32,325 nt of DNA, taken from positions 1-32,325 of the forward strand of contig QMLQ01000007.1 in assembly GCA_003646815.1 (NCBI GenBank), in the 5' to 3' direction. A program made the position numbers and the translations under genes. This stretch comes from Deltaproteobacteria bacterium (GTDB lineage Bacteria; Desulfobacterota; DSM-4660; Desulfatiglandales; Desulfatiglandaceae). Positions 7,256 through 26,794 of the stretch are shown piece after piece. The notes beneath the pieces are model-generated. The model had not been told where the DNA came from, searched no databases, and saw nothing but the letters and a program-made list of their open reading frames with translations. Numbering within the stretch: position 1 is the first letter of the stretch; every line of letters starts with the position of its first letter.

Positions 7256-9160
7256 ATGAAACAGATTATTCTGGGAACAGCAGGCCACATTGATCACGGA
7301 AAAACATCCCTTATCAGGGCACTCACCGGCATCGATACAGATCGCCTGAAAGAGGAAAAGGAACGGGGCATTACCATTGAACTGGGTTTTGCACACCTGG
7401 AGCTGCCGGGGGGCAAACTCCTTGGCATCGTGGATGTCCCTGGTCATGAGAAGTTTGTTAAGAATATGGTGGCCGGCGCCACCGGTATAGACCTGGTAGC
7501 CCTGGTGATCGCCGCGGACGAAGGCGTTATGCCGCAGACCAGGGAACACCTTGAGATCTGCCAACTGCTGGATATTCACCACGGCCTCGTGATTCTCACC
7601 AAGATTGACATGGTGGACGAGGAATGGCTCGAACTTGTGAAGGAAGACGTCCAGGAATATCTCTCCGAGACGTTCCTTGCAGACGCCCCAATCGTTGAAG
7701 TGTCATCCGCCACCGGTGAAGGTATCGACAAACTGATCTCGATCCTGGATGTACTCGCACAGGGAATCCCTGAGAAGGAAGTGGGGCACGTATTCCGGCT
7801 TCCCATCGACCGCGTGTTTTCCATGAAAGGGTTCGGCACGGTCATCACCGGGACGGCCGTGTCCGGGCGGATCAAGACAGGAGAAGAGGTCACCATCTAC
7901 CCCCAGGAAATCCAATCACGGATACGGGGAATACAGGTGCATAACCAGGAAGTCGAAGAGGTCAGGGCCGGTCTTCGCACTGCGGTCAATTTACAGGGTA
8001 TTGAAAAAGCGGTGATTCACCGCGGCCATGTCCTCGCTACGAAGGGTTCCATGAAACCCACATTCATGATGGACGTTATTCTTGACCTTCTTTCCAGCGC
8101 CCCGAGGAAACTCAAAAACCGGGCAAAGGTGCGGTTCCACACCGGCACCTCCGAGATCATCTCAACCGTCGTCCTCCTGGACAGGGATGAACTGGCGCCG
8201 GGACAAACCTGTTTTGCACAAATCCGGCTGGATGAGCCGACCGCTGTGCTCAGAAAGGACCGATACGTGTTGCGCAGTTATTCTCCCGTGCGGACCATCG
8301 GCGGCGGGGAAATTCTCAATGCCCTCCCCCGGAAAAAGAAACGGTTTTCCGATAGCTCTCTCACTGAAATGAAGACCCTTCACCAGGGGGATCCGGCGGA
8401 AATCGTGGAGCTCTTCGTGGGTCAGGGACGTTTCATGGGAATGGAACAGGACCAGTTGCCTTTTCTCACCAATACGAACAAGAAGCGGCTTGAAGATATC
8501 CTGAACGGTCTCATGGCAAAAAACCGAGTAGTCCGGTTTGACAAGGAAAACAGGGTATTGATCCGTGCGGATTTCCTGGAGAAGGCCCGGAACGAGCTCC
8601 TCGACACCATCGCAGAGTATCACCGGAAATTTCCCCTGAAAGTGGGGCTCCCAAAAGAAGAACTCCGGTCAAGGACAACCGGATCAAGAAATCAGAAACT
8701 TTTCAACTTCCTCATCAATCAGCTTACCAAAGAGGGCCGGATCGTGCAGGAAAAGGATCTGGTACGCCTGGTGGATCACCGGGTTACTCTTGCGGCCGAT
8801 CAGCAGGAAGCCCGGAAGAAAATTGAGGAAATATATGTCAAGAGCGGGCTTCAGCCCCCTTATTTCAAGGAGATAAAAGACGAGTTCCCCGGCAATACGG
8901 CCTTTGAGGTCCTTGAGTTGATGCACAAAGAAGGATCACTGATCAAGGTCAAGGAAGACCTCTATTTCCATAAGCAGGCCGTCGAAAAACTGGAAAAAGA
9001 CCTCGTAGGATTTCTCAAGGAGCACAAAGAGATCACGACACCCCAGTTCAAAGAGATGACGGGAACATCACGCAAATACACCATTCCCCTCATTGAATAT
9101 TTTGATCGATCCCAGGTCACCGTGCGGGTCGGGGACAGCCGGGTCCTGAGAAGAAAATGA
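7256..9160 (+). CDS. selB: Selenocysteine-specific translation elongation factor SelB
   Basis: 634 aa: [67 protein letters not shown], followed by the long C-terminal winged-helix region typical of SelB. Confidence 0.97.
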
Positions 9161-9169
9161 GTTTTTTGT

Positions 9170-9958
9170 ATGAAAAAGGCCCCTGGTAATCTTCGCTCAG
9201 CACTGGCATTGGGAGCCAGCGAACATATCGCCATTGTCGGCGGGGGAGGAAAAAGTACGCTCCTTTTCGCCCTGGCAAGGGAGTTGCGCCGCCAAAGCCT
9301 TAAGGTCGTCACCACAACCACCACGAACGTCTGGCTGTGGGAGAGGGACCAGGCCCCGTGGGCCTTGTATCTTTCCGAGGAGGCCTCCTGGGAGAACCTA
9401 CTCAAAGAAGCCGTTGAGAAACAGGGTCACGTGTTCGTAAGCAGGGAAGCCCTCTCTTCAGGAAAAGCGGCGGGGATCTCAAAGGATATGGCTGATGCCC
9501 TGTTTCAGGAACCCTGGGTGGAGTACCTGCTTGTGGAGGCGGACGGTGCTGCCGGACGGCCGGTCAAAGTGCCCATGCCTCATGAACCGGTCATTCCTGA
9601 TTCGGCTACGGCGGTGATTGCTGTTGTGGGACTTGATGCCCTTGGTTCTGCGTGTACCGAAAAAAACGTGTTCCGGATCGATGAATTCAGAAAGATCACC
9701 GGGCTCAAATCCCAAAACAGGATAACACCGGAGGCCCTGGTGAAGATATTTGCGCACCGGAAAGGCATTTTCAAGGAATCACCCGAAAAGGCCCGCCGGA
9801 TAGTCTTTTTGAACAAGAGTGATATCTGCGAAGATCTGGAAGAAGCCCGAATACTGGCGCAGCATATCGTTCAATTGCCTGATGCTGCGGTGGACAGGGT
9901 GGTATTGGGGTCACTCCACAATGAGGAATATAATGTTATTTTGGGAGAAGAGCGGTGA
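9170..9958 (+). CDS. yqeC: YqeC-like putative selenium-dependent hydroxylase accessory protein
   Basis: HIAIVGGGGKSTLLFALARELRRQSLKVVTTTTTNVW; LLVEADGAAGRPVKVPMPHEPVIP; VIAVVGLDALG. Confidence 0.85.
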   Translation: MKKAPGNLRSALALGASEHIAIVGGGGKSTLLFALARELRRQSLKVVTTTTTNVWLWERDQAPWALYLSEEASWENLLKEAVEKQGHVFVSREALSSGKAAGISKDMADALFQEPWVEYLLVEADGAAGRPVKVPMPHEPVIPDSATAVIAVVGLDALGSACTEKNVFRIDEFRKITGLKSQNRITPEALVKIFAHRKGIFKESPEKARRIVFLNKSDICEDLEEARILAQHIVQLPDAAVDRVVLGSLHNEEYNVILGEER

Positions 9959-11019
9959 AAGAAATCTATGATAGAGCGGTTGAAGAATCGAAAAAGGGGA
10001 ATGTTTCCGTCTTGGCGACAATCATCAAGCAGGCTGGTCCATCTCCCCGCGGCATCGGCGCAAAGTGCCTGCTGACGAAAGACGGCACTCTTATTGGAAC
10101 GGTCGGTGGCGGGCGCCTGGAAGCGGAAGTCCTTGGCAAAGCCCCCCAGGTGCTGCAATCCGGCGTACCGGAGGTGCTGAGCTTTCATCTCAAAGGGACC
10201 GATGTTGAGGACACGGATATGCTGTGCGGCGGTGATGTGGAGGTCTTTCTTGCCCCCCTTTCCCCGAAAGACGTGTCTCTCCCTTCCTTTTTAGACGCAG
10301 TCCTGAAAATCCATCGGCGCGGCGGCGAGGGATTGATCGCGACGGTTGTTGACCCTGAAACATGGCAGGGAGAGAAGGCACCCTTGCTCTTTCTTACCAG
10401 GGAAGGCGGACAAACAGGAAGTATGCCGCACTATCACGACCTCGAAATGGAATTGAAAAACAATTTAGAGACACTCCTAAAAGAGCGGCTCCCCAAAATT
10501 TACACCTTTTCCGTAAGTGGAACATCGCTGAACGTCTTTGTGGAGCCGGTCATATCGAACCCGGTTCTGTTTATTTTTGGCGGCGGACATGTGTCCCAGC
10601 AGATTGTACCCCTGGCGGCCCGGGTCGGATTCAACGTGACCGTTATCGACGACCGGGAGGAATTTGCAGATCCTCGTCTTTTCCCGGACGCGAAAGAAGT
10701 CGTAAAACTCGGGTTTGAGGATGTGGTGGATAACCTGCCCGTGAATAAATCCTCCTTCCTTGTAATTGTTACCCGAGGGCACAGTTTTGACAAGGAAGTG
10801 CTGGCCCAGGCCCTGCGGACGAATGCCCGGTACGTGGGAATGATCGGAAGCAGACGAAAGCGGGATATTATTTATCAAAGGCTCCTGGAGGAAGGATTCA
10901 CCCTGGAAGATCTTGCGCGGGTCCATTCGCCCATAGGGCTCAGCATCGGGGCGGAAACCCCTGCGGAGATCGCGGTCAGCATCGTGGCGGAACTCATACA
11001 AGAGAGGGCAGGAGGATAG
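9955..11019 (+). CDS. XdhC/CoxI-family molybdenum hydroxylase maturation factor
   Basis: GTG start overlaps the yqeC stop. QAGPSPRGIGAKCLLTKDGTLIGTVGGGRLEAEV; LFIFGGGHVSQQIVPLAARVGFNVTVIDDREEFA; RYVGMIGSRRKRDII; IGLSIGAETPAEIAVSIVAELI. Confidence 0.88.
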   Translation: MKEIYDRAVEESKKGNVSVLATIIKQAGPSPRGIGAKCLLTKDGTLIGTVGGGRLEAEVLGKAPQVLQSGVPEVLSFHLKGTDVEDTDMLCGGDVEVFLAPLSPKDVSLPSFLDAVLKIHRRGGEGLIATVVDPETWQGEKAPLLFLTREGGQTGSMPHYHDLEMELKNNLETLLKERLPKIYTFSVSGTSLNVFVEPVISNPVLFIFGGGHVSQQIVPLAARVGFNVTVIDDREEFADPRLFPDAKEVVKLGFEDVVDNLPVNKSSFLVIVTRGHSFDKEVLAQALRTNARYVGMIGSRRKRDIIYQRLLEEGFTLEDLARVHSPIGLSIGAETPAEIAVSIVAELIQERAGG

Positions 11020-11116
11020 GAAAAGAAGGATAAAGGACGAATGTGAAGGGCCGTGATTTGTTGGGATTGAAAAGGCATCGATTTGGTCAGAAATGCACCA
11101 AGAGGGAGAAAAGAGC

Positions 11117-11773
11117 ATGAGTTACAAGATTGATGATTCATACCAGGGATGGCTGTGGGAAAAGCTGGGTGAGAAATGTGTTGAAAACCTCAAGAAGCAC
11201 GGGTTTGACGCTCACCTCGTAGAGACGGTTGATAAAGCAAAAGACCTGATCCTGAAAATGATCGGCGACTTCGAAACATTCGGCTTCGGGGGGTCTGATA
11301 CGACCCGCGCGCTCGGGGTCATGGAAGAGCTGAAAGACAAGGGCAAGACCATCCATGACCACTGGCAGGAGGGGCTGAGCAGGAAAGAAGACCTGGAGAT
11401 CCGGCTCCTGCAGGGCCGCTGCGACTGCTTCCTTTGCAGCGCCAATGCGATCGCCGCAACAGGCGAAGTGGTCAACGTGGACGGCATCGGCAACCGTACT
11501 AACGGCATGACCTTCGGGCCGAAAAAGGTGGTAATTGTTGCCGGCATGAACAAGGTGGCTCAGGACCTCCACGGGGCCCTGCGGCGCATCCGGGAAGTGG
11601 CCGCCCCCATGCGGGCGAAAAGCCTCGGTATGCAGACACCCTGCGCGGAGACGGGCTTCTGCACCGACTGCAACGCGCCCCAGCGCATCTGCCGCGTCAC
11701 CACCATCCTTCACCGGAAGCCCATGCTCACGGACGTAAGCGTAATCCTGATCAACAAGCCCCTGGGTTTTTGA
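11117..11773 (+). CDS. LUD-domain (LutC/YkgG-like) protein
   Basis: GFGGSDTTRALGVMEELKDKGKTIHDHW; CFLCSANAIAATGEVVNVDGIGNRTNGMTFGPKKVVIVAGMNKVAQDL. Likely start MSYKIDDSYQG with AGGGAGAAAAGAG upstream. Confidence 0.8.
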   Translation: MSYKIDDSYQGWLWEKLGEKCVENLKKHGFDAHLVETVDKAKDLILKMIGDFETFGFGGSDTTRALGVMEELKDKGKTIHDHWQEGLSRKEDLEIRLLQGRCDCFLCSANAIAATGEVVNVDGIGNRTNGMTFGPKKVVIVAGMNKVAQDLHGALRRIREVAAPMRAKSLGMQTPCAETGFCTDCNAPQRICRVTTILHRKPMLTDVSVILINKPLGF

Positions 11774-11775
11774 TC

Positions 11776-12033
11776 ATGGCCAGGCACAGTCACTCGTTTG
11801 TTGATGAATATGACGGTTTTGTAGGCTTCGGTTTCAACCGCGAAGTGGACGAACACACCCTGACGTACTATCTTCAGAAGTTTTCAGACGATGAATTCAT
11901 TGCGCTCATGAGGACCAGGATGTCCCGGGAAGACATGGAAGCGCTCTTTGACCATCTCAACGAGATCATGAAGCGCTACCTGAAAGATGAGGAATACCAT
12001 CGCTACTTCCTGAAAGACAAAGAGCACGGGTAG
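11776..12033 (+). CDS. Small conserved-looking protein of unknown function (about 85 aa)
   Basis: MARHSHSFVDEYDGFVGFGFNREVDEHTLTYYLQKFSDDEFI...; starts 2 nt after the LUD gene stop, so probably co-transcribed. Confidence 0.65.
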   Translation: MARHSHSFVDEYDGFVGFGFNREVDEHTLTYYLQKFSDDEFIALMRTRMSREDMEALFDHLNEIMKRYLKDEEYHRYFLKDKEHG

Positions 12034-12705: not shown

Positions 12706-12722
12706 TGTCGCGAATCGCAACA
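12706..12722. promoter_or_regulatory. Dyad TGTCGCGA-A-TCGCAACA, candidate enhancer (UAS) for an NtrC-type activator
   Basis: 17-nt inverted repeat, 7 of 8 positions symmetrical, about 180 bp upstream of the sigma-54-type -24 element. Confidence 0.4.
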
Positions 12723-12900: not shown

Positions 12901-12916
12901 TGGCATCTATCTTGCT
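12901..12916 (+). promoter_or_regulatory. Sigma-54 (RpoN) promoter: TGGCATCTATCTTGCT
   Basis: GG-N10-GC spacing; matches TGGCAC-N5-TTGCW at all but one defined position. About 45 nt before the ATG at 12962. Confidence 0.75.
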
Positions 12917-12961: not shown

Positions 12962-13960
12962 ATGGCAAAAAAGATGAAAGAAAATGTGCGGGATCGAATC
13001 GGATATGGCTCTTCCTACAGGAAGGGGGCGTCTCATGACTTGAAGGAAAAAGAAGAAATTGGGGCGGTCTTAGGCGGCCAGGTCTGGATGGTAAGGCCGG
13101 ATAAAAAAGGACAGAGCGCCAATCCCTGTATCTGGATGCAGGCTGGTGTTGTAGCCTTCAAAAATTGCAACAATTTTTATGACTGTACCACCTGTAAATA
13201 CGATCTGGGAATGCGGAAGAAGGCAGCACAGGGGAAACAAATAACCTGGCAGGATGCCATGAGGAGACGATCGGGCCTGGAAAGGGCCTGCCGTCACAGC
13301 CTTACCAACAGAATCGCAAAACGGCAGTGCGCCTATGATTATGAATGCTCCCATTGTGATTTTGACCAGTTTTTTGAGGATGTCTGGACAACCAAAACCA
13401 GGAAACTGCCGACCGAGGTGCACAGGGTCAAAGGCTTTGAAGTTCCTATGGGATACTATTTTCACAACGGGCATGCATGGGCTCGCATTGAAAGTGGCGG
13501 TTATCTCCGGGTAGGAATGGATGATTTTGCCTTGAAGCTGCTTGGAAAAGCAGATGCGCTGGACCTCCCTCTCATGGGAAAAGAGCTGGATCAGGATGCT
13601 CCCGGGTGGGGATTGCGAAGGGGCAACAATGCAGCCGATGTGCTCTCTCCAGCTGGAGGAGTTATCGTCGAGGTGAATTCCAGCGTGAGAGAAGACTCCG
13701 GCCTGACCAACCGGGAACCGTATGGTGAGGGATGGCTCTTTGTACTCCGCAATCCTGATCTCAAGAAGGCCATGAAAAACCTGATGGACGACACAACCGG
13801 TCTTGAGTGGATAAACAGTGAAGTCGGCAAACTGGAAGAGATGATCGAGGATGTGGCGGGTCCACTGGCTGCTGACGGCGGACATCTTGCCAACGACGTT
13901 TTCGGGAACCTGCCGGATCTGGGCTGGGGAAACCTGACCAAAACATTCCTCAAAACCTGA
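12962..13960 (+). CDS. GcvH-like protein with N-terminal duplicated Cys module (paralog 1), lipoyl lysine absent
   Basis: ATG 12962 after GGAGCGAGGAA. Two C-x12-C-x5-C-x2-C-x-[FY]-D modules (CIWMQAGVVAFKNCNNFYDCTTCKYD; CRHSLTNRIAKRQCAYDYECSHCDFD), then a GcvH-like domain (GYYFHNGHAWARIE...LDLPLMGKEL...VLSPAGGVIVEVN...EPYGEGWLFVL). Confidence 0.85.
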   Translation: MAKKMKENVRDRIGYGSSYRKGASHDLKEKEEIGAVLGGQVWMVRPDKKGQSANPCIWMQAGVVAFKNCNNFYDCTTCKYDLGMRKKAAQGKQITWQDAMRRRSGLERACRHSLTNRIAKRQCAYDYECSHCDFDQFFEDVWTTKTRKLPTEVHRVKGFEVPMGYYFHNGHAWARIESGGYLRVGMDDFALKLLGKADALDLPLMGKELDQDAPGWGLRRGNNAADVLSPAGGVIVEVNSSVREDSGLTNREPYGEGWLFVLRNPDLKKAMKNLMDDTTGLEWINSEVGKLEEMIEDVAGPLAADGGHLANDVFGNLPDLGWGNLTKTFLKT

Positions 13961-13982
13961 TCGGATAAAGAAAGCAGGAGCC

Positions 13983-14903
13983 TTGAACCCGAGGGATGAT
14001 CCATGGAAAAGCGCTATGTCTAAAAGAACAAAGGAAAAACAAGCTGCAGGGCAAGAAGACCGGTGCATCTGGATGCATGCGGGGGTCGTCAGCAAAAAAT
14101 ATTGTGAGCGGAACTACCGATGCACCGATTGTGTCTTCGACCAGGCATTGCGACGCGCTGCCGGTAAAAAACGAAGCGGCCTCGTCTCCTGGCAAGACAA
14201 ACTGAGGGAACGGCCCCAGTGGAAGAGACCGTGCATTCATCATATGAAGGGTGCTATTGAATATCGGTCTTGCACCAACGACTACCAGTGTGGCCACTGC
14301 GATTTCGACCAGTATTTTCAGGATCAGTACACCGTTCATGCCGTAGTGAGTCCAGTAGATTCTTTTGAGGTTGGCGGGTTCAAGATCCCCCAGGGCTACT
14401 ATTTTCATGAAGGACATACTTGGGCCAAGCTGGAAGAAGGGCCTTCGGTGAGAATCGGTATTGATGATTTTGTTCTCAGAGTGCTTGGGCCTTTCGACCA
14501 CATTGAATGCCCCCTTTTGGGGAAAGAGGTGAAACAGGGCGAGCAGGCCATTTCCGTCATTCGCGGTGACAAGCGGGCCCGGATGCTTTCACCCGTAAGC
14601 GGTGTTGTGACGGCCCTAAACCCGGGAGTGCGTGAAAGGGGTACGCCGGCTCACGAAGATCCGTATGCCAACGGATGGATCATGACAGTTCATGCTCCTC
14701 ATCTCAGAAAAGAACTGAAAAATCTCACCATTAACAAGGAATCAAGAAATTTTATTGGGAAAGAAGTAGATCGGCTTTTTGAGATCATTGAAGAAGTGGA
14801 AGGGCCGCTTGGTACTGATGGTGGCGCACTGGGCAGTGATCTCCTGGGCACAATACCGAACCTTGGCTGGGAAAGGCTTACTCGCCTCTTCCTTCGCATA
14901 TAA
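13983..14903 (+). CDS. GcvH-like protein with N-terminal duplicated Cys module (paralog 2), lipoyl lysine absent
   Basis: Same layout: CIWMHAGVVSKKYCERNYRCTDCVFD and CIHHMKGAIEYRSCTNDYQCGHCDFD, then GYYFHEGHTWAKLEEG...IECPLLGKEV...MLSPVSGVVTALNPGV...DPYANGWIMTV. Start uncertain (TTG 13983 or an internal ATG). Confidence 0.85.
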   Translation: MNPRDDPWKSAMSKRTKEKQAAGQEDRCIWMHAGVVSKKYCERNYRCTDCVFDQALRRAAGKKRSGLVSWQDKLRERPQWKRPCIHHMKGAIEYRSCTNDYQCGHCDFDQYFQDQYTVHAVVSPVDSFEVGGFKIPQGYYFHEGHTWAKLEEGPSVRIGIDDFVLRVLGPFDHIECPLLGKEVKQGEQAISVIRGDKRARMLSPVSGVVTALNPGVRERGTPAHEDPYANGWIMTVHAPHLRKELKNLTINKESRNFIGKEVDRLFEIIEEVEGPLGTDGGALGSDLLGTIPNLGWERLTRLFLRI

Positions 14904-14929: not shown

Positions 14930-14965
14930 GGCTGATGGGCTATCCGCTCATCAGCCTTTCTTTTT
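14930..14965 (+). terminator. Intrinsic terminator after the GcvH-like pair
   Basis: GGCTGATG (14930-14937)/CATCAGCC (14949-14956), perfect 8-bp stem, then TTTCTTTTT. It overlaps the convergent archaemetzincin stop codon. Confidence 0.8.
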
Positions 14966-15500
14966 CATCCTTGAGCAAGGTACTGCAATATCTGCAGAGG
15001 TGATTGGACTTCCGATCCACATCCGCCACCGAGTGGCAGTAATGCATGATACATCCGGGGTCCTTACAATGACGAAGATTAAATGTATGTCCCAGTTCGT
15101 GGACAGCCTCCTTTACCACCCGTGTATGATACTCCTTCTCCCGTCCCTCTGACCCAAAACCTTCCTTGAGCCGATGCAGGGAAATGATGGATGCCCTGCC
15201 CCCCAACTGGGCTTCACCGTACACATGGGTCAGGATGGGGATGAAGAGATCCTGCCTTGTAACGCCCAATATCTTCAAGGCATCCGACGGAGCTTTCCGA
15301 TCCAGGATCTCCAGTATAAGGGTGGAGTGATACTGCCGCCGTTGCCGGTCAAAAGCAAACGCAAGGTCGTCTATGAGCGGCATGATCTCAACGGGAAAAC
15401 CGAATACCGTAATGAGAGCCCCGATTATCCGGTCCAGGAGTGACGTATCCAGGGCTTCAATGGGGGAAAGAATGATGGTATGTGCCGGTTGGGTATTCAA
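14940..15500 (-). CDS. amzA: Archaemetzincin family (M54) zinc metalloprotease
   Basis: HELGHTFNLRHCKDPGCIMHYCHSVADVDRKSNHLCRYC matches the HExxHxxxxxHC...C...C...CxxC archaemetzincin signature. Confidence 0.9.
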   Translation of the reverse strand: MNTQPAHTIILSPIEALDTSLLDRIIGALITVFGFPVEIMPLIDDLAFAFDRQRRQYHSTLILEILDRKAPSDALKILGVTRQDLFIPILTHVYGEAQLGGRASIISLHRLKEGFGSEGREKEYHTRVVKEAVHELGHTFNLRHCKDPGCIMHYCHSVADVDRKSNHLCRYCSTLLKDEKERLMSG

Positions 15501-16852
15501 TCTGGCCTGCGAATTCCATATCGCTTGATTTTGCTGTACAGGGTGGAACGGTCGATTTGCAGTATGTCAGCACTTTTCTTGATATTCCAATCAGTTTCGC
15601 CCAAAATAGTCATGACATGCGCTTTCTCAATCTCCTGCAAGGATTTGTCGGCGGCTAGGGTCCGATGTTCCGGAGAAAAAATGGGGAGATCCTCAGGTTT
15701 CACGGTCCGCCCCTTGCCCACAACAACGGCCCGCTCTATTGCGTTCTCCAGCTCACGAACATTCCCCGGCCATTCGTAAAGCATCATTTCGTCCATAGCT
15801 TCCCTACTGATTTTGTCTATATCCTTGTTGCTTTCTTGGGAAAACCGGTGCAGGAAATGCTCCGCGAGAATGGGGATATCTTCCTTTCTTTCTCGCAGGG
15901 GTGGCATAGCAAACGAGATCACGTTGAGTCGGTAGAAAAGATCCTGCCTGAACGTCCTGTCCCGGATCGCCTGGGCCAGGTCTTTGTTGGTGGCGGCGAT
16001 GACCCTGAAGTCGGCCTCAATGGGTTGCGTTCCTCCGACCCTGTAGAATACCCGGTCCTCCATGACTCGCAGGAGGTCGATCTGCATCCGCATGCTGATC
16101 TCGCCTATTTCATCCAGGAAAAGGGTCCCGCCGTGTGCCAGTTCCAGCCTGCCTTTCTTGCTCGCCTTGGCATCGGTAAAGGCACCTTTCTGATGCCCGA
16201 AAAGTTCACTTTCAAGGAGATGTTCGGGAAATGCTCCGCAATTCACCGCCACAAATGGACCGTTGCAGCGCGGGCTCTTGCTGTGAATCGCCTTTGCCGC
16301 CAGACCTTTTCCGGTGCCTGTTTCCCCGGTGATCAACACGGTTGAGTCGGTAGCGGCAACATCCTCTATCAACCGGAACACTTCCTGCATCGCCCTGGAT
16401 TGACCAAGCATGCTCTCAAATCTGCTACGTTCCCGGTATTCTTCTTTCAGGAAGAGAGTTTCGCGATCTTGCGCCTGCCGGTCCATGATCTTTTCAATCA
16501 GAAGTCCCAGTTCATTCGGATCAAAGGGCTTCATCAGGTAGTCAAAGGCCCCGTTTTTCATGGCCTCGATGGCCGTGGAAACGGAACCATAAGCCGTGAT
16601 CATGACTATGGCAACATCCGGGTCATTTTCATGCACTCGCTTCAGGACATCCAGGCCGCTCATGCCGTCCATCTTGATATCCAGAAGAAGGATGTCATAC
16701 CGGATATTTTCGAGCATCTCCAGGGCCTCTTCGCCACTGGCGGCCTTGTCTACCTGGTGGCCGTCCCTTTCCAGCCATCCGGCGAGAGATTCCCTCATAA
16801 TCAGCTCGTCATCAACAATAAGAATCTTAGCGGTCCCCATGTAGGCCTCCAT
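15497..16852 (-). CDS. Sigma-54-dependent NtrC-family response regulator (REC-AAA+-Fis HTH)
   Basis: REC: ILIVDDELIMRESLAGWL, DILLLDIKMDGMSGLDVL. AAA+: VLITGETGTGKGLAAKAIH, ESELFGHQKGAFTDAKASKKGRLELAHGGTLFLDEIGE. C-terminal Fis-type HTH. Confidence 0.96.
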   Translation of the reverse strand: MEAYMGTAKILIVDDELIMRESLAGWLERDGHQVDKAASGEEALEMLENIRYDILLLDIKMDGMSGLDVLKRVHENDPDVAIVMITAYGSVSTAIEAMKNGAFDYLMKPFDPNELGLLIEKIMDRQAQDRETLFLKEEYRERSRFESMLGQSRAMQEVFRLIEDVAATDSTVLITGETGTGKGLAAKAIHSKSPRCNGPFVAVNCGAFPEHLLESELFGHQKGAFTDAKASKKGRLELAHGGTLFLDEIGEISMRMQIDLLRVMEDRVFYRVGGTQPIEADFRVIAATNKDLAQAIRDRTFRQDLFYRLNVISFAMPPLRERKEDIPILAEHFLHRFSQESNKDIDKISREAMDEMMLYEWPGNVRELENAIERAVVVGKGRTVKPEDLPIFSPEHRTLAADKSLQEIEKAHVMTILGETDWNIKKSADILQIDRSTLYSKIKRYGIRRPD

Positions 16853-18452
16853 CCCCGGAGGGGACAGGAAGAAGCACGCGAAAAGTCGTGCCCTTTCCCG
16901 GCTTCGATTCGACCTTAATAGTCCCCCCGTGTTCCTCTACTATTCCGTAAGCCACTGAGAGCCCCAAGCCGACCCCCTTACCTTTTTTCTTGGTGGTGAA
17001 AAAAGGTTCAAACAATTTTGAAAGGTTCTCTTCCGGTATCCCAGCTCCCGTATCGGTAAGAGAGATCATGATTATACTGTCTGCCGACAGGGACCTGGTT
17101 TCAATAGTGAGAATACCGCCTTCACCGGCGTCCATTGCCTCGGCAGCGTTTGAGACCAGGTTCATCAAGACCTGTTGGAGCTGATCCTCCGACCCCACGA
17201 TTTCCGGCAGTTCCACATCAAGGCTTTTTTCAACTCTTACCCGGTTAATTTTCAAAAGATTCCCGTTGAGAAGCAGGGTTTTTTCTATTAGACGATTTAT
17301 ATCAACCGGTTTCAATTCGAGCTTTGACTGCCGCGAAAACGCAAGAAGGTTGGAGGCTATTCGGCTCACCCGGCGTGTTTCAGTCTCCATAAGTCCAAGG
17401 TATTGTACAAATCGCTCGGCTGTCCGGGTATCAAGGTCTTTTTCCTCTATAATCCGTTTCATAAGCAGGATAAAATTGAACATACCGGCAACAGGATTGT
17501 TTATCTCATGCACCACAGACGCCGCCAGCTTACCGAGGGACGCCATTTTGTCCTGATGGAGGAGCTTCTCATGGGTTTCCTTGAGCTCCCTGGTACGTTC
17601 CTCAACCATTCTTTCCAGGCGCTGCCGTATTTTTTCCTCCTGTTTTTTCCTGTCTGTTATGTCCCTGCTGATCTCAATAAACTTGGAAATTTTCCCTTTA
17701 TCCCCCCAGATGGGAAACATGGAAACTTCAATATACCGGATTCGTCCCTTATGGTCCACGCGGGTGAGGATTTGCTGGTTCGTCTGCCTGTTTTTGATGA
17801 CTTCCTCGAGCGGGCAGACAAAATCACCTCTCTTGCAGGGTTCAGCGAAATTTTGAAAAATTTCATGACATTTTCGTCCAATCACCTCATCACGTCCGTA
17901 CCCCATGGTATTCAAAAAGGCCTCATTAACCTCCACAATTTCCCGTTCAGGGGTAATGACGACTATAGTGTCCTGAATGGCATTAAAAATAGTCTCAAAT
18001 TCTTCTGTCTGGCTCCTGAGCCTTTTTTCTTCAACGTTGGTTGCCCGCCAGAACATGTCAAAAACATGGTACGCAAGAACCCTGATATGATCGGGCTTTG
18101 TTGCCAGAATCTCTTTAAAAACCTCCCTCTCGGGTGTCAGTACCATGATGAGATGGATATCGAACACAGGAAGGAAAAAATCTCGATAATCTCCGGTAAC
18201 CTTCAGGCCGAGTTCCCTGGCTTTCGCGACCCCGGGACTTGTGAGGTCATTGTCTGCAATGGCAATGATTTTGGCACGCACGTCCTTTTTGCGGTAATCG
18301 GAATAGGTTTTTTCCAAGACGTCTCTGGCCAGCAAACCGCCACCCACAATGCCGATATTGATAATTTTTTCCGCCTCTACATTCATAAAATTGACCCTCG
18401 ACAGAAACCCTTCTTTCCCTGGACCTGACACCTCATTTTTGGAGCTTATCAT
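16827..18452 (-). CDS. PAS-domain sensor histidine kinase with N-terminal Rossmann-like (NAD(P)-binding-like) domain
   Basis: N-terminus INIGIVGGGLLARDVLEKTYSDY...IIAIADND; PAS (FETIFNAIQDTIVVITPEREIVEVNEAFLNTMGY); HisKA (ASVVHEINNPVAGMFNF); HATPase (LMNLVSNAAEAM, DTGAGIPEENLSKLFEPFFTTKKKGKGVGLGLSVAYGIVEEHGG). Start is ATG 18452 or 18386. Confidence 0.9.
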   Translation of the reverse strand: MISSKNEVSGPGKEGFLSRVNFMNVEAEKIINIGIVGGGLLARDVLEKTYSDYRKKDVRAKIIAIADNDLTSPGVAKARELGLKVTGDYRDFFLPVFDIHLIMVLTPEREVFKEILATKPDHIRVLAYHVFDMFWRATNVEEKRLRSQTEEFETIFNAIQDTIVVITPEREIVEVNEAFLNTMGYGRDEVIGRKCHEIFQNFAEPCKRGDFVCPLEEVIKNRQTNQQILTRVDHKGRIRYIEVSMFPIWGDKGKISKFIEISRDITDRKKQEEKIRQRLERMVEERTRELKETHEKLLHQDKMASLGKLAASVVHEINNPVAGMFNFILLMKRIIEEKDLDTRTAERFVQYLGLMETETRRVSRIASNLLAFSRQSKLELKPVDINRLIEKTLLLNGNLLKINRVRVEKSLDVELPEIVGSEDQLQQVLMNLVSNAAEAMDAGEGGILTIETRSLSADSIIMISLTDTGAGIPEENLSKLFEPFFTTKKKGKGVGLGLSVAYGIVEEHGGTIKVESKPGKGTTFRVLLPVPSGDGGLHGDR

Positions 18453-18669: not shown

Positions 18670-21600
18670 ATGCCTGACAAACCCGTGGGATCTGTCATGG
18701 TGGTCGGCGGAGGGATTGCTGGAATGCAGGCATCCCTTGATCTTGCCGATTCCGGGTACCTGGTCCACCTTGTTGAAAAGTCCTCCGCGATCGGCGGGGT
18801 TATGAGTGAGCTGGACAAGACCTTCCCCACCAATGACTGTGCCATGTGAATTATCTCCCCGAAACTGGTCGAGGTCGGCCGGCATCTGAATATCAACCTC
18901 ATTACTTGTGCGGAAGTAGAAAAGATTGAGGGATCGCAAGGTAATTTTAGGGTCACCCTCAACAAGACACCCCGGTATATCGATGAATCCAAATGTACCG
19001 CCTGTGGAGACTGTGCTGAAGTATGTCCAGTAGTCCTGCCCAGCGAATACGATCAGGCACTGGTAACCAGGAAGGCTACTTTCAAAAAATATGCCCAAGC
19101 CATACCGGGATCTTTCTCTATCCAGAAGGCAGACAAAGCCCCTTGCCGTCTCGCGTGCCCTGCCGGTTTGAATGTGCAGGGATACGTTCAAATGGTTAAA
19201 GAAGGGAAGTATAAAGAATCACTTGAAATCATCATGAAGGATCTTCCTCTGCCGGGGGTGCTGGGAAGAATCTGCCCCCACGGATGCGAGGATGCCTGTC
19301 GTCGTGCCCAGGTAGACGACCCGGTGGCTATCCGTGACCTGAAACGACTGGCAGCAGATCAGTTTGATCCGCGTGATATCGAGATAGCATGCGCACCAAA
19401 GCGTGATGAAAAAGTAGCAATCATCGGGTCGGGACCGGCTGGTCTTTCAGCAGCATACCACCTTGCACGCAAGGGCATACAATCGGTGATATACGAGGCC
19501 CTGCCGGAGCCTGGCGGCATGCTTCGGGTTGGCATACCCGACCACCGACTCCCAAGAAAGGTCCTCGACACGGAAATCGAATTGATCCAAAACCTGGGAG
19601 TGGAAATCAAGACAAACGCTCCCCTCGGTCCTGACTTGACGGTAGATGACCTTTTCGAGAAAGGTTTCAAGGCGGTCTATCTCGCGATCGGCGCCCACCG
19701 GGGAATCGATCTCGGCGTCCCCGGAGAAAAGGCAAAAGGGGTGCGCCAGGGGGTCGATTTTCTTCGGGAACTTAATCTTAAAGGCAGCGTTGAGGTCGGG
19801 CAAAAGGTGGCAATCATCGGCGGCGGGAACGTGGCCATTGACGTGGCTCGGTCGGCCGTGCGGATGGGCGCTGAGGATGTCAATATTATCTATCGCCGCA
19901 CCCGGGCTGAAATGCCTGCGTGGGAAGAGGAAATCAGTGCTGCGGAACAAGAAGGAACCCATATCACGTATCTCTCTGCCCCCCAGGAGATTCTGACCAG
20001 GGACGGTGTGGTGGTGGGTGTTCGGTGTATCCGCATGGAACTGGGGGAGCCCGATTCTTCAGGGAGGAGACGACCGGTTCCAATTCCGGGGAGTGAATAC
20101 GAAATAGAAATCGACCAGGTGATTCCAGCCATCGGTCAGCGGGCGGACCTGTCGGCCATTGAGGATATTGCGGGCCTCGATTTCACGCGCTGGGGGACCA
20201 TTGATGTGGATGCAACCACCTATGCAACCGGGCGTGAAGGCGTCTTTGCGGGTGGCGATGCCCAGACAGGCCCCTGGGTCGCCATCGGTGCCATAGCAGC
20301 TGGGCGGGAAGCCGCCGAATCCATTGAGCGATATTTCGACGGAAGAGATCTGGCTGAAGGTCGTGAACCCATCAACAAAGACAATCCTTTGTATCGCCCC
20401 ATCCCACCTGATATTTCTTCCAAGGCCAGGGCCCGGATGCCCGAATTGCCCCCGGAAAAAAGAAAAGGCAATTTCAATGAAGTGGAATTGGGGTATGACG
20501 AGGAAACAGGCCGTGAGGAAGCAGACCGTTGCCTTAACTGCGGTTATTGCTGCGAATGCTTTCAGTGTGTGGATGCGTGCGGCGCACAAGCCGTGACTCT
20601 TGACACCCATGCACAGCAACCTGAAACCGTTGATCTGGAGGTGGGCTCGATTATTCTTGCCCCGGGATTTGAAGCATTTGATCCTTCACAATTTGATACA
20701 TACAACTATGCAAATCACCCAAATGTCATAACTTCCATGGAATTCGAGAGGATCCTTTCTGCATCCGGACCCACCATGGGGCACCTGGTGCGCATGTCGG
20801 ACCACAAAGAAGCGAGAAAAATAGCATGGTTACAGTGTGTGGGTTCTCGAGATATGAATCGCTGCGACAACGCCTACTGCTCCTCGGTCTGCTGCATGTA
20901 TGCAGTAAAAGAGGCGGTTATCGCCAAGGAACACGGCGGAGAGGATCTCGACTGCAGCATATTCTATATGGATATGCGAACCCACGGAAAAGACTTTGAA
21001 CGGTATTATGATGACGCCCGGGAAAAGCACGGGGTTCGTTTCATCCGATCCCGTGTCCACTCTATTACACCCATGCCCGGATCGGACGATCTGATCATCA
21101 AATACGCTGATGAGAATGGGAATTTAAGGGAAGACATTTTTGATATGGTCGTGCTTTCCGTTGGGCTGGAGACACCGCCCGAGACAAAAGAACTGGCTGA
21201 AAGACTGGATATTGATCTGACGGAAGGCAGTTTTTGCCATACGGAGTCCTTTCATCCCGTTGCCACGTCCAGGGACGGCATATACGTCTGCGGGGCCTTC
21301 CAGGGACCTAAGGATATCCCGCAATCCGTGGTTGAAGCCAGTTCAGCCGCGGCGGAAGCAGGGTCCCTTCTGAGCGCCAGCCGTAATACTCTGACAAGGA
21401 CCAGGGAACTTCCGGAAGAAAAAAATATAATAGGAGAACGCCCCAGAATCGGTGTCTTTGTCTGCCATTGCGGGATCAATATCGGAGGCGTCGTAGACGT
21501 TCCGGCCGTCCGGGATTACGCGGCAAACCTCCCTTACGTGACATACGTCACGGACAACCTTTATACCTGTTCCCAGGATACTCAGGACACCATTGCCAAG

Positions 21601-23106
21601 GTCATCAAAGAAGAGGGGCTGAACCGAATCGTAGTTGCCGCGTGTACGCCGAAAACTCACGAACCCCTGTTTCAGGAAACCATGGTCGGCGCGGGTTTGA
21701 ATAAGTATCTCTTTGAGATGACAAACATCCGGAATCAGGATTCCTGGGTGCATAAGGATGACCCCGAAGCCGCTACCGAGAAAGCCAAAGACCTGGTGCG
21801 CATGGCCGTAGCCAAGGTGGCCCTGATGGAACCTCTCAAGGAAACGGAGCTGGGCATCAACCAGAAGGCCCTTGTGGTGGGCGGCGGTATTTCCGGCATG
21901 GTCACCGCAAGGACCCTCAGCAAACAGGGATACCAGGTCGCCTTGGTGGAAAGGAACAACGCCCTGGGCGGCCAGGCCCTGAACCTTTTCAGGACCTGGA
22001 AAGGGGAGAATGTCCGGGAAAACGTCTCGTCTCTGGTGAAGGATGTGGAAAAGGACGGGAACATTGAGGTCCATCTCAATACGGTATTGAGTCATGTTGA
22101 CGGTTTTGTCGGCAATTTCAAGTCGACCCTGAAATCGGGTGACAAGGAAGAGGAGATTGAGCACGGTATCACGGTGATTGCCACCGGGGCCCAGGAGTTC
22201 AAGCCGGACGAATACCTTTACGGAAAAGACCCAAGGGTCATGACCCACCTGGAACTGGATCGAAAATTCATGGATGATCCTGCTTCACTGAAGGCGGCGA
22301 GCACCGCGGTTTTTATCCAGTGTGTCGGTTCCAGGGAACCGGAAAGGCCTTACTGTTCTCGCGTCTGTTGTACCCACTCCATGGAAAGTGCACTCCAGTT
22401 AAAGGAATTGAATCCAGATATGGATGTCTACATCCTGTACCGGGATATCAGGACCTACGGAGAAAGGGAAACCCTTTACAGAAAGGCCCGCGAAGCCGGG
22501 GTTATCTTTGTGCGGTACAGTCTTGATCAAAAACCAGAGGTTAAAAGCACTGAACAGGGCCTGGAAATCCAGGTCAACGACCCGATCCTCCAGCGCCCGC
22601 TGATCATTCGGGCGGACCTGCTTGGACTTGCATCCGCCATCGTGCCTTACAGGGATGAAGAACTTGCCCAGCATTTCAAGATCACCCTGAACGACGACGG
22701 CTTTTTTGTGGAGGCCCACCCGAAACTGGCCCCCTCCGAATTTGCAACGGACGGTGTTTTCCTGTGCGGGATGGCGCATTATCCCAAGCCCATTGACGAG
22801 TCAGTGGCCCAGGCCCAGGCAGCGGCATCACGTGCTGTCACGCTCCTGGCAAGGGAAACCGTCCATGTGAGCGGCACCGTCGCATATGCAAACCCCGCCT
22901 ATTGCAGCAGTTGCGGCGTATGCGTGTCTATCTGCCCCTATTCAGCGCCCTCTTTTATTGAGGAAGGCCCCTTTGCCGGCAAGGCCCAAATTAATGCAGC
23001 CCTGTGCAAGGGTTGTGGCCTTTGCGTTGCATCCTGCCGTTCCGGCGCCCTCAACCTCCGGGGATTTGAGGAAGGGCAGATTATGGCAATGATAAACGAG
23101 ATGTAG
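18670..23106 (+). CDS. hdrA: Selenocysteine-containing HdrA-like subunit; HdrA-GltD/NfnB-like-HdrA fusion (1478 residues, Sec at codon 60)
   Basis: ORFs 18628..18849 and 19168..23106 are in the same frame, separated only by TGA 18847-18849. The intervening sequence is open ([16 protein letters not shown]...[30 protein letters not shown]...). RBS AAAGGAG 18657-18663, ATG 18670. Context TNDCAM-[TGA]-IISPKL matches the HdrA C-x-x-C/U position. Confidence 0.92.
18865..18882 (+). promoter_or_regulatory. SECIS-like stem-loop downstream of the hdrA UGA
   Basis: CUGGUC (18865-18870)-loop GAGGUC-GGCCGG (18877-18882), 6 bp including two G-U pairs. The loop starts 22 nt after the UGA and contains GGU, at the position expected of a bacterial SECIS. 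Confidence 0.6.
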
Positions 23107-23125: not shown

Positions 23126-23557
23126 ATGAGCGACTGGGAACCAAAAATCACCACCTTCCTGTGCCACTGGTGCAGTTACGGCGCAGCGGATCTTGCCGGG
23201 GTCAGCCGGCTCCAGTACCCCCCCAATTTTCGGGTCATCAGGGTGCCCTGTTCCGGCAGGGTAAGCCCCAAGTTCATCCTCGCGGCCTTCAGGCACGGTG
23301 CGGATGGTGTATGGGTCTCGGGGTGACACCCCGGAGACTGCCATTACCTGGAAGGTAATTATTACGCAAGACGCAAATTCGTCCTCCTGAAAAACCTCAT
23401 GGAACATGTGGGATTGGAACCGGGTCGGCTGCATTTTTCCTGGATCAGCTCAGCCGAGGCTACCAAGTTTGTTGAAGTAGCCAACGAGGTAAACGCTGCA
23501 GTCGGTGAACTGGGTCCGGCCAAGTACCTGATAAAGAAACGAGCCGAGGTAGCATAA
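23126..23557 (+). CDS. mvhD: Selenocysteine-containing MvhD/VhuD/FlxD-like iron-sulfur subunit (143 residues, Sec at codon 67)
   Basis: ORF 23126..23326 ends at TGA. The same frame continues [55 protein letters not shown]...EVA to TAA 23555-23557. MvhD normally has G-C-HPGDCHY here. RBS GAGGAGAA upstream. Confidence 0.93.
23315..23359 (+). promoter_or_regulatory. Two hairpins at the mvhD UGA: one with the UGA at its apex, one SECIS-like downstream
   Basis: (i) GTCTC GGGGT-GAC-ACCCC (g) GAGAC, 23315-23338, with the UGA at the stem/loop junction. (ii) ATTACC-TGGAA-GGTAAT, 23343-23359, loop starting 23 nt after the UGA. Confidence 0.55.
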
Positions 23558-24507
23558 TGATTGAGTATACGGAAAAGATCAGGGCGATTGCCAGGAGGCT
23601 CCTGGAAGAGGGGACCGTGGATGTGTTTATCGGATACCGAAAAGGCTCGGTGCCCATGATGAATGAGCCCCTCCTGATCAGGGACCCTGGCAAGGTGGAT
23701 CTGCTCTACTGGGACAGCAATTGCGGGTTGAACCTGAGCAACTACCTCCCCGGGAGGACCGAAAAAATCGGCATCCTCGCAACGGGATGTAACTCCAGGA
23801 ACATTGTCACCCATATCATCGAGAACCAGATCAAGCGGGAGCAGCTTCATATCGTGGGTGTCCCCTGCACAGGCATGATCGATCACCGGGCGGTAAAAAG
23901 GGCTGTCGGGCAAAAGGAGATCCTGGAAGTCACAGAGAAGGACGGATCATTTACCGTTCGTGGAAGGGATTTTGAAGAAACCTTCGAGAAAGCCGACTAC
24001 CTCCAGACCAACTGCGCGGTCTGCCGTCACCGGAATCCGGTGGAATACGATGAACTGGTTGCCGATCCGGTAGAAGAGCAGAAGAATGTTGAACCCTACA
24101 ATGATGTCAAAAAAATCGAGACCCTTTCTCCTGATGAAAAAACGGGGTTTTTCCAGCGGCTCATCGCCCGTTGTATCCGCTGCTACGCGTGCAGGAACTC
24201 TTGCCCGCTGTGCTATTGTCCAACCTGTTTCGTGGACGAATCGCGGCCCCAATGGGTGGGCAAAAGCAGTGACCCGACTGATACCATGACGTTCCATTTT
24301 CTCAGGGCCTACCACTGTGCAGGACGCTGCACCGACTGCGGCGCGTGCGAGAGGGTGTGTCCCATGGGGATTTCCATGCGGCAGTTTACCAAGAAGCTCA
24401 ACAAGGACGCGGAGGAGCTTTTTTCCTGGGAGGCGGGCCTCAACCTGGACCAGCGGCCGCCGCTGGATGTGTATCTGCCGGATGACTATAACGATTTCAT
24501 TAAGTAG
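23557..24507 (+). CDS. Fe-S protein of an Hdr/Flx-type complex (FlxC-like / FrhB-related)
   Basis: CIRCYACRNSCPLCYCPTCFVDES and CTDCGACERVCPMGISM ferredoxin motifs; start overlaps the mvhD stop (TAATG). Confidence 0.75.
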   Translation: MIEYTEKIRAIARRLLEEGTVDVFIGYRKGSVPMMNEPLLIRDPGKVDLLYWDSNCGLNLSNYLPGRTEKIGILATGCNSRNIVTHIIENQIKREQLHIVGVPCTGMIDHRAVKRAVGQKEILEVTEKDGSFTVRGRDFEETFEKADYLQTNCAVCRHRNPVEYDELVADPVEEQKNVEPYNDVKKIETLSPDEKTGFFQRLIARCIRCYACRNSCPLCYCPTCFVDESRPQWVGKSSDPTDTMTFHFLRAYHCAGRCTDCGACERVCPMGISMRQFTKKLNKDAEELFSWEAGLNLDQRPPLDVYLPDDYNDFIK

Positions 24508-24509
24508 TG

Positions 24510-24738
24510 CATCCATAAATGGCTATTTTGTCCGATATCTGCGTTATGCTCAAACCGGGGACCCGCCCGAAGGGTGGGGAGTCCAAGCTAAGCGCGGACA
24601 AACCGGGGACCCGCCCGAAGGGTGGGGAGTCCAAGCTAAGCGCGGACAAATTTTAATCCTCGAAATACCGGGAATGTATTCCTGTGGTTAAGATTTTCGC
24701 ATGCCTTGATCTCGAACAAACTATCTTATTTATGGATG
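24510..24738. repeat. MITE-like element with 11-bp terminal inverted repeats
   Basis: CATCCATAAAT (24510-24520) and ATTTATGGATG (24728-24738) are perfect inverted repeats. Adjacent TTTTGTCCGATATC / GATCTCGAACAAAC also match imperfectly as an inverted repeat. Confidence 0.65.
24551..24646. repeat. Perfect tandem duplication of a 48-bp unit (two copies)
   Basis: CAAACCGGGGACCCGCCCGAAGGGTGGGGAGTCCAAGCTAAGCGCGGA at 24551-24598 and 24599-24646. Each copy can fold (GGAC CCGCCC GAA GGGTGG GGA GTCC). Confidence 0.97.
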
Positions 24739-24810
24739 GGCGCTCAGATTCGATATTGATAACTTCTGAATCGTGAACCAGGCACATGGTGCCTAGAAGA
24801 GGTGTTTTCT

Positions 24811-25851
24811 ATGACAGACAAGATATTCGCCAAAGAAGCATGGCAGGAAACCCTTCAGGGGCTGTCCGGGGATTACAGGGTTTTTGTCCCGGTCAAGGAT
24901 GGTGACTTCCATGTGTTTCGGCTTCTGGAAAAGGAAACAAGGCCGGATTTTGAGTATCAGAATACCCGGCTCTCACCAAAGGGCCTTGTCTATCCCCAGT
25001 CCGAAAGGATGTTTGAATATTCCCTGGATGAAAGAGACCCGGAAAGCAACATCCTCAAGGAAGATCCCAAAGACTACAGCCCGCAGGCTGTGGTGGGAAT
25101 CCGGCCCTGTGACGCCCATGCCTTTCAGATTGTGAAACGGAATTTTGACAATCCCGAATATCGCGATCCCTGGTGGGTGCAGCATTTTGAATCAACAACG
25201 CTTGTGGGACTGGGATGCAATGAACCCTGTGCCCAATGTTTCTGCACCGCCATGGGGGGCGGCCCTTTTGATGAAAAGGGGCTGGATGTCCTGCTCTATG
25301 ACCTGGGCGAGACCTATCTCGTGCGGGGCCTTACAGACAAGGGCGAGGATTTTTTGAGCAAGGCCGAAGGTGGAAGCTCTGCCGATGAAGCGGCCCGGAA
25401 GAGTGCCACTGACCTTTCGGCAAAGGCGGTGGAAGGCATGCCCGAACCGAGGAAGGTGGATCCCATACGGGAAAAAGCCATCAACGACTTGTTTGACGCG
25501 CCTTTCTGGGAAGATGTTGCCTTTGCCTGTCTCAACTGCGGTACCTGTACGTTCCTTTGCCCCACTTGCTGGTGTTTTGACATCCAGGACGAGGTGCAGG
25601 GAAAGCAAGGGGACCGAATCAGGAATTGGGATTCCTGCATGTTTCCGCTTTTCACCCTGCATGGTTCCGGCCATAACCCCCGTGACAAAAAATTTCAGCG
25701 GGTGCGCCAGCGTTTCATGCACAAGCTCAAATATTACGTGGACAAATATGATGATGGGTTTCAGTGCTCAGGCTGCGGGCGTTGCGTAGCATTCTGCCCA
25801 GTGAATATTGACATACGAGAAGTCGTTGAATTGATGAGCAATTACGGTTAA
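24811..25851 (+). CDS. 4Fe-4S dicluster protein, FlxB / HydB-AsrA-like electron-transfer subunit
   Basis: GIRPCDAHAF, GLGCNEPCAQCFC, CLNCGTCTFLCPTCWCFDI, CSGCGRCVAFCPVNIDIREV. ATG 24811 with AAGAGG RBS. Confidence 0.82.
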   Translation: MTDKIFAKEAWQETLQGLSGDYRVFVPVKDGDFHVFRLLEKETRPDFEYQNTRLSPKGLVYPQSERMFEYSLDERDPESNILKEDPKDYSPQAVVGIRPCDAHAFQIVKRNFDNPEYRDPWWVQHFESTTLVGLGCNEPCAQCFCTAMGGGPFDEKGLDVLLYDLGETYLVRGLTDKGEDFLSKAEGGSSADEAARKSATDLSAKAVEGMPEPRKVDPIREKAINDLFDAPFWEDVAFACLNCGTCTFLCPTCWCFDIQDEVQGKQGDRIRNWDSCMFPLFTLHGSGHNPRDKKFQRVRQRFMHKLKYYVDKYDDGFQCSGCGRCVAFCPVNIDIREVVELMSNYG

Positions 25852-25920
25852 CCGGTTAGCCGGTTTGGCCAGTTAACCCGTTAACGGTACAACCGGCTCA
25901 ATGGGTTAACGGGCTCAACC
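25846..25920. repeat. GTTAAC-rich palindromic intercistronic region
   Basis: GGTTAAC (25846-25852)/GTTAACC (25872-25878) and CCCGTTAAC (25877-25885)/GTTAACGGG (25905-25913). Four GTTAAC sites within about 70 bp; the first stem includes the upstream TAA stop. Confidence 0.8.
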
Positions 25921-25951
25921 TAGAAACTAAGAATAGTAAGGAGGATGTTCC

Positions 25952-26794
25952 TTGGAAAATCCCTATCTTCCCTATCCGGTTCGCATAGATGGTATTGTTA
26001 CCGAAACTGAAGACCGGAACCTCAAGACATTTAAGTTTGTCTTTCTGAATCCGGAGGACGAGCAAAAGTTTGCATATACTCCCGGCCAGTTCGCAGAGCT
26101 TTCCATACCGGGCAAGGGAGAAATTCCCATCGGTATTGCTTCTTCCCCAACGGAGAAGGGGTTCGTGGCCTTTACGGTCAACAAAGTGGGCCTTGTAAGC
26201 AGCCATCTCCACAACATGAAGGAGGGGGATGTCATGGGGATCCGCGGGCCATTGGGCAACTGGTATCCCTGGAAAGCAATGGAAGGAAAAAACGTAGTCA
26301 TCATCGGGGGCGGATTTGCCTTCACCACCCTTCGATCCAGCATCGTGTACATGATAGAACCGGAAAACCGCCCGAGATTCAAAGACATCCGGGTGGTCTA
26401 CGGTGCGAGAAATCCGGGCATGCTTCTCTACCGTGATGAACTGGCGGCATGGGAGCAGCGGGACGATATGGAGATGCACATCACCGTGGACGGGACCGAC
26501 GATCCTGACTGGAAGTACAATGTTGGGTTTGTGCCCACCATCACCGAGCAGAAAATCACCAGCGCGGATAATGCCATTGCCATCGTGTGCGGTCCCCCTA
26601 TCATGATCAAGTTTACCCAGCCGGTCCTTGAGAAACTGGGCTTCCCGCCGGAACGGATCATCCTCTCTCTTGAAATGCGCATGAAATGCGGGATCGGCAT
26701 CTGCGGCCGATGCAATATCGGCGACAAATATGTGTGCAAGGATGGCCCGGTGTTTTCCCTCGCGGAACTGAAAGAACTACCCCCTGAATACTAG
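25952..26794 (+). CDS. FAD/NAD(P)-binding oxidoreductase subunit, FlxA / HydG-AsrB-like
   Basis: TTG start 7 nt after AAGGAGG. YTPGQFAELSIPGKGEIPIGIAS, GIRGPLGNWYPW, NVVIIGGGFAFTTLRS, VCGPPIMIKFTQPVLEKLGF, MKCGIGICGRCNIGDKYVCKDGPVFS. Confidence 0.88.
   Translation: MENPYLPYPVRIDGIVTETEDRNLKTFKFVFLNPEDEQKFAYTPGQFAELSIPGKGEIPIGIASSPTEKGFVAFTVNKVGLVSSHLHNMKEGDVMGIRGPLGNWYPWKAMEGKNVVIIGGGFAFTTLRSSIVYMIEPENRPRFKDIRVVYGARNPGMLLYRDELAAWEQRDDMEMHITVDGTDDPDWKYNVGFVPTITEQKITSADNAIAIVCGPPIMIKFTQPVLEKLGFPPERIILSLEMRMKCGIGICGRCNIGDKYVCKDGPVFSLAELKELPPEY

Follow-up and report, generated by a model that had tools for sequence, protein, structure and literature searches.

GcvH-like proteins with four-cysteine modules and no lipoyl lysine: candidate partners of Hdr- and Nuo-type complexes in Desulfobacterota

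The window analysed here, a stretch of 32,325 nucleotides from a Desulfobacterota genome, contains two adjacent genes for GcvH-like proteins, G1 and G2. In both proteins the lipoyl lysine is replaced and the N-terminal part carries two four-cysteine modules. The favoured reading, held with moderate confidence, is that they have a GcvH fold without lipoylation, are under redox control and serve Hdr/Nuo-type complexes as subunits or adaptors, and that their Cys modules would bind metal. The kinase, the sigma-54 regulator, the protease, the promoter, the Hdr, Nuo and NrfD neighbours and the fusions described below together suggest that G1 and G2 partner electron-transfer complexes and are regulated. 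The first-pass annotation of this DNA had described repurposed, non-lipoylated GcvH folds, possibly redox sensors, adaptors or carriers. Its view of the fold stands and its list of functions is too open. It had missed the electron-transfer neighbours, the fusions and the surroundings formed by kinase, regulator, protease and promoter, which are conserved across bacteria of the sulfate-reducer type. In routine annotation, genes of this kind (Cys-GcvH) would be named glycine cleavage H-protein and thus overlooked.

Domain structure of G1 and G2

G1 (12962..13960, forward strand) encodes 332 amino acids, comprising a double four-Cys module, a lipoyl-less GcvH domain and a C-terminal tail. Its start is the ATG at 12962, which has a GGAG-type ribosome site ahead of it. 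The paralogue G2 (14016..14903, forward strand, 295 amino acids) shares 41% identity with G1. It starts either with the ATG at 14016 or with the TTG at 13983, which is preceded by its own AGGAG. The two reading frames and their four modules agree in coordinates and spacing exactly with the first-pass annotation.

The pattern C-x12-C-x5-C-x2-C-x-[FY]-D is exact in all four modules, two per protein. In G1 they comprise C56, C69, C75 and C78 (13127..13195) and C110, C123, C129 and C132 (13289..13357), in G2 C17, C30, C36 and C39 (14064..14132) and C73, C86, C92 and C95 (14232..14300; all on the forward strand). Homologues were collected from 29 genome contigs (Desulfobacterales and related MAGs), with the G1 relatives being 52–92% identical. 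All eight cysteines are invariant in the 31 G1 and 29 G2 homologues. Variable spacing in homologues would have spoken against a genuine module; the spacing is conserved. A set of 48 diverse double modules likewise shows all eight cysteines invariant, as well as a Trp two residues past the first Cys, and the modules are therefore not a chance pattern. In 54 diverse full-length members the invariant positions comprise these cysteines, the Trp after the first Cys, framework residues of GcvH and positions of the tail.

The Cys module is unrecognised and has no match among known folds. When it was searched alone, no Pfam family scored above its cut-off (zf-CHY appeared at E 0.018–1.8), no PDB sequence matched and Foldseek returned nothing at E≤10. 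The AlphaFold model used is reasonably confident, with a mean pLDDT of 82. A search of PHROGs gave no match, and we know of no nameable Fe-S signature that fits the spacing. It is plausible from the sequence that the N-terminal modules bind a metal centre or an Fe-S cluster. The balance may tilt slightly towards Fe-S and away from Zn, because the family has Fe-S flavoprotein partners, because an IscU-type gene lies behind a third copy (see below) and because the sampled hosts belong to an anaerobe-rich phylum; this was the one phylum searched, so the host restriction holds within the sample.

The C-terminal part had been assigned to GcvH, and Pfam agrees. PF01597 (GCV_H) covers 13457..13795 of G1 (E 4.7e-21) and 14400..14756 of G2 (E 2.3e-15), both on the forward strand and above the gathering score. 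The best PDB sequence matches of both proteins are all H-proteins, and Foldseek retrieves H-proteins only at E≤0.001 with the predicted fold (best E 6e-12). The NCBIfam gcvH equivalog scores are 69.2 and 52.4 bits and remain far below the cut-off of 115.85. The domain of G1 is followed by a conserved tail (13796..13957, forward strand; DGG..D..W...FL), in which G306, D312, W322 and F329 are invariant in 54 sequences. Pfam has no match for the region 13790–13957.

Sampling of 395 genomes from across the phylum found the Cys module in 82. In the family of the window it is present in 34/46 genomes, or 15/17 of those of good quality. The architectures found are a single module with GcvH, a double module as in G1 and G2, a quadruple module (16 Cys), the module alone and fusions.

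Promoter, kinase, regulator and archaemetzincin

A strict and perfect sigma-54 (-24/-12) promoter, TGGCATCTATCTTGC, lies at 12901..12915 (forward strand) ahead of G1. The palindrome TGTCGCGAATCGCAACA at 12706..12722 has no second strict copy in the window and may be the upstream activator site to which the response regulator binds. The strict patterns were TGGCAY-N5-TTGC for the promoter and TGTNG-N7-CNACA for the palindrome. Strict sigma-54 sites are found upstream of 23/27 G1-type genes, with a shuffle mean of 0, and upstream of 12/27 other multi-module genes. They are absent upstream of all 29 G2 genes, which are second in the operon, and of all 15 single-module or fused genes. The background was 0 to 0.08 in shuffles and 21/757 for other ORFs.

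The palindrome stands upstream of 23/36 (strict) or 29/36 (loose) of the sigma-54 sites of the family, compared with 0.09 and 0.19 in shuffles; this comparison is somewhat optimistic because the palindrome was derived from the same sequences. The whole assembly contains 35 palindromes; of its 36 strict sigma-54 sites only one, that at 12901, has a palindrome (12706) within 300 bp upstream. In a single-contig relative (G331), the other genome compared in this way, the sole combination of this kind is located at 2361472/2361691, ahead of its G1; the 16-Cys gene of this relative also has a palindrome upstream, at 3312260. Loci from different families share the palindrome (L086, L089, L094, L096, L101 and L102), and in the last two the same promoter and palindrome precede a Cys-GcvH–hdrA pair. 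Tested over all families the site is not universal, being absent for instance from L084, L088, L091 and L093. Regulators of families without it may recognise another site. As far as sequence can tell, the regulation of G1–G2 is well supported.

Convergent to G1–G2, three genes on the reverse strand form an operon that is transcribed in the order kinase, response regulator, archaemetzincin; the first two overlap by 26 bases and the last two by 4. The histidine kinase (16827..18452) consists of a Rossmann-like N-terminus followed by PAS, HisKA and HATPase domains (Pfam). The NtrC-type sigma-54 response regulator (15497..16852) contains the Pfam domains Response_reg, Sigma54_activat and HTH_8. 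The third gene (14940..15500) encodes an archaemetzincin (M54) metalloprotease with the HExxHxxxxxH motif (NF033823, 153.6 bits with a cut-off of 145; PF07998). The extended motif HExxHxxGxxHCx4CxM is represented by HELGHTFNLRHCKDPGCIM, with Asn in place of Gly. Among the archaemetzincins neighbouring the family, a relaxed pattern of the full motif is found in 40/48 and HExxHxxxxxH in 48/48.

The profile of the kinase N-terminus (A4) matches Gfo/Idh (8e-5), acetaldehyde dehydrogenase (1e-5) and Rex (0.0025). Since these are NAD-binding families, the kinase probably senses NAD(H). The kinases of some loci (L077 and L078) have a membrane domain in place of the Rossmann domain. Two other loci contain an additional kinase–regulator pair adjoining the first, and it too has a Rossmann-type N-terminus (L028, 15548–19026; L029, 15752–19227).

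The linkage was assessed in 40 loci that had been selected by the presence of the Cys module and nothing else. Within 6 kb, a regulator is present in 26, an archaemetzincin in 26 and a kinase in 24, and the complete trio also in 24. At the genome level, 74/82 genomes with the module and 72/313 without it contain an archaemetzincin (Fisher p 1e-29, a value inflated by genome relatedness). The archaemetzincin was rejected as an invariable part of the system, as genomes without the module hold many lone protease loci (e.g. L106–L109). A third Cys-GcvH gene in the genome of the window (L004/L105, contig C154) has its own regulator, archaemetzincin and sigma-54 site. Behind it come a NifU_N (IscU-type) and an ARMT1-like gene.

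In the proposed circuit the kinase, through its probable NAD(H)-binding N-terminus, would sense the redox state and phosphorylate the adjacent response regulator. The regulator would then bind the palindrome at 12706 and turn on the sigma-54 promoter at 12901, leading to production of G1 and G2. The archaemetzincin, translationally coupled to the regulator, would be an accessory protease of the same pathway that perhaps trims or removes the Cys-GcvH protein or a partner.

Electron-transfer neighbours and fusions

The next gene beyond the kinase, and divergent from it, encodes an HdrA/GltD-type Fe-S flavoprotein (18670..23106, forward strand). It is not in an operon with G1–G2 and contains an in-frame UGA at 18847–18849 (CAMU, probable Sec). 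The same ORF break recurs in relatives, where 1418-residue ORFs start at the stop. The window also contains selB (7256–9160). The adjoining block at 9170–12033 comprises YqeC-like, XdhC-like and LUD-domain genes and an 87-residue ORF of no recognised family, and at least some of it recurs upstream in two other loci (L009 and L035). Further downstream, genes at 23557..26794 (forward strand) resemble the beta and gamma subunits of sulfhydrogenase/AsrAB, presumably Flx-like, and a 4Fe-4S protein. NCBIfam families match 24802–25851 and 25952–26794; the gene at 23557–24507 has no family match and was read from its Cys motifs.

Similar neighbours are common in the 40 loci. HdrA is encoded in the flanks of 14, HdrB and HdrC of 8 each, a NuoF-type flavoprotein of 8 and NrfD of 4, with at least one of these in 28/40. 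In about 10 loci the Cys-GcvH gene is located directly 5' of hdrCBA or hdrA on the same strand. Against an electron-transfer role, some loci (L075, L090 and L097) have no electron-transfer genes within 6 kb.

Additionally, two types of fusion to oxidoreductase subunits are present. In L066 and L067 an HdrA-like ORF carries a C-terminal GcvH-like domain (Pfam E 2.4e-16 in L066), and the fused gene lies directly 3' of a 16-Cys gene. In L068–L073 a Fer2–Fer4 NuoG-like protein is fused with one Cys module and a GcvH domain; those of L068–L072 adjoin NuoF, IorA and mostly NuoE. GcvH-like proteins also accompany a ferredoxin–NrfD pair in L077–L080 and in four loci from genomes without the module (L110, L111, L113 and L122). 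Most of these loci also hold the kinase and protease genes, and some of their GcvH-like proteins are membrane-anchored or have a different Cys motif. This second motif, CPFLE-x4-V-x-FCKAFPVKKMIP-x9-C-x6-C, occurs on lipoyl-less GcvH proteins of L110, L111, L113, L122 and L073, in clusters holding ferredoxin, NrfD, kinase and archaemetzincin genes. The protein of L073 combines both motif types.

It is mainly because of the two fusion types that an electron-transfer role is preferred to signalling alone. G1 and G2 would then be electron-transferring subunits of oxidoreductase complexes of the Hdr, Nuo or NrfD type, or docking adaptors for them. The strongest competitor, with a modest share of the probability, is a regulatory protein in which zinc or thiol-switch modules sit on a GcvH-fold adaptor. 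Such a protein would feed back on the kinase or regulator, or present targets to the archaemetzincin, and the electron-transfer genes would merely be what the circuit controls. The near-obligate linkage with the kinase–regulator–protease trio, the genomic co-occurrence with archaemetzincin and the promoter/palindrome pair that this assembly has only ahead of G1–G2 all suit this explanation. Fusions to subunits of catalytic complexes (NuoG-like and HdrA) speak against it, as do copies in Nuo-like, Ior and NrfD clusters with neither kinase nor protease nearby (L068–L072 and L079).

LbpA of the Hdr-like sulfur-oxidation pathway is a GcvH-like lipoate-binding protein encoded beside hdr genes; its lipoyl Lys is strictly conserved and it has two isolated cysteines (PMC6067878). 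By analogy with LbpA and sHdr, the cysteines of the present family could take the place of lipoate and deliver sulfur, as a persulfide or disulfide, to an active site of the Hdr type. The shared position of a GcvH fold beside hdrABC (PMC6067878) favours such a sulfur carrier, but it is unlikely: the fixed four-Cys spacing resembles a metal site and not the two isolated cysteines of LbpA, and the neighbourhood maps, whose annotation is not exhaustive, show no recognisable TusA, DsrE or rhodanese genes.

The lipoylation site and comparison with known systems

In a gapless alignment the lipoyl-Lys position is occupied by Asn in G1 and Asp in G2, in line with the earlier reading. In one phmmer alignment of G2, an inserted gap sets the Lys at +1 on the lipoyl site. 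A Lys at the site would have overturned the assignment, and the column was counted in 113 family members with the Lys-bearing GcvH-like proteins of the same genome as reference. Lys is found in only 7, compared with Gly in 29, Asp in 25 and Glu in 21. At +1, Lys occurs in 25/113 and Asn is the commonest residue. Thus, the family as a whole is not built for lipoylation, and from these alignments the loss of lipoylation is well supported.

Lipoylation of G1 and G2 on a shifted Lys, with a function like that of LbpA or GcvH, is accordingly very improbable. The seven and 25 members with Lys at the site or at +1 and the gapped G2 alignment speak for it; no single position of the hairpin has a conserved Lys, and the genome encodes separate Lys-bearing GcvH-like proteins. 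Besides the canonical gcvH, these include two (L002 and L003) that keep the Lys (ESGKW and QSRKW). One adjoins a 4Fe-4S/CCG protein (HdrD-like by eye) and one a lipoate-ligase-like gene, and it is possible that they are LbpA-type proteins of this anaerobe. Ordinary or decaying glycine-cleavage H-proteins, suggested by the Pfam score above gathering, are practically ruled out by the conservation of the new domains including the Cys modules, the family-wide loss of Lys, the scores below the equivalog cut-off and the canonical Lys-bearing gcvH (L001) elsewhere in the genome, directly ahead of a gcvPA-like ORF (gcvPA called by eye). The window itself lacks gcvP and gcvT, as had been noted.

More speculatively, and with less confidence than in the subunit or adaptor role itself, an undescribed Fe-S module on a lipoate-free GcvH scaffold may act throughout Desulfobacterota as an interchangeable connector that serves Hdr, Nuo-like and NrfD complexes alike. 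Its control would rest with a dedicated sigma-54 circuit that senses NAD(H) and includes an archaemetzincin. If so, this would be the first bacterial role for archaemetzincins. The findings comprise a cofactor-less GcvH-fold family, an unrecognised Cys module and a defined promoter circuit. They also place bacterial archaemetzincins in a biological setting; how important these proteases are biologically has been described as little known (PMC3427221). Direct tests of the regulation and wiring of Hdr-type flavoprotein complexes in anaerobes become accessible. Searches of the open-access literature turned up no description of Cys-GcvH combined with kinase, regulator, protease and electron transfer, LbpA being the sole related idea, and no paper that links archaemetzincin with two-component systems.

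G1 and G2 share with GcvH (PF01597, TIGR00527) the fold, many framework residues and the best PDB matches. They differ in the missing lipoyl Lys, the score below the equivalog cut-off, the additional Cys modules and C-terminal tail and the gene context. The NCBIfam families NF045810 (GcvH-related) and TIGR03077 (GcvH-like) are likewise derived from GcvH and outside glycine cleavage, but G1 and G2 score only 25–36 bits against them (cut-offs 150 and 144). To our knowledge, Cys modules are not known in either family. Like LbpA, the Cys-GcvH family is linked to hdr genes, with HdrA in the window as well as in the 14/40 loci. Unlike LbpA, it has no lipoyl Lys, which rules out membership, and it has 4–16 cysteines arranged in modules, sigma-54 regulation and linkage to a protease. 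The protease of the window is a clear member of the archaemetzincins (M54; PMC3427221, PMC4681839) and differs from those known by its placement in a kinase–regulator operon.
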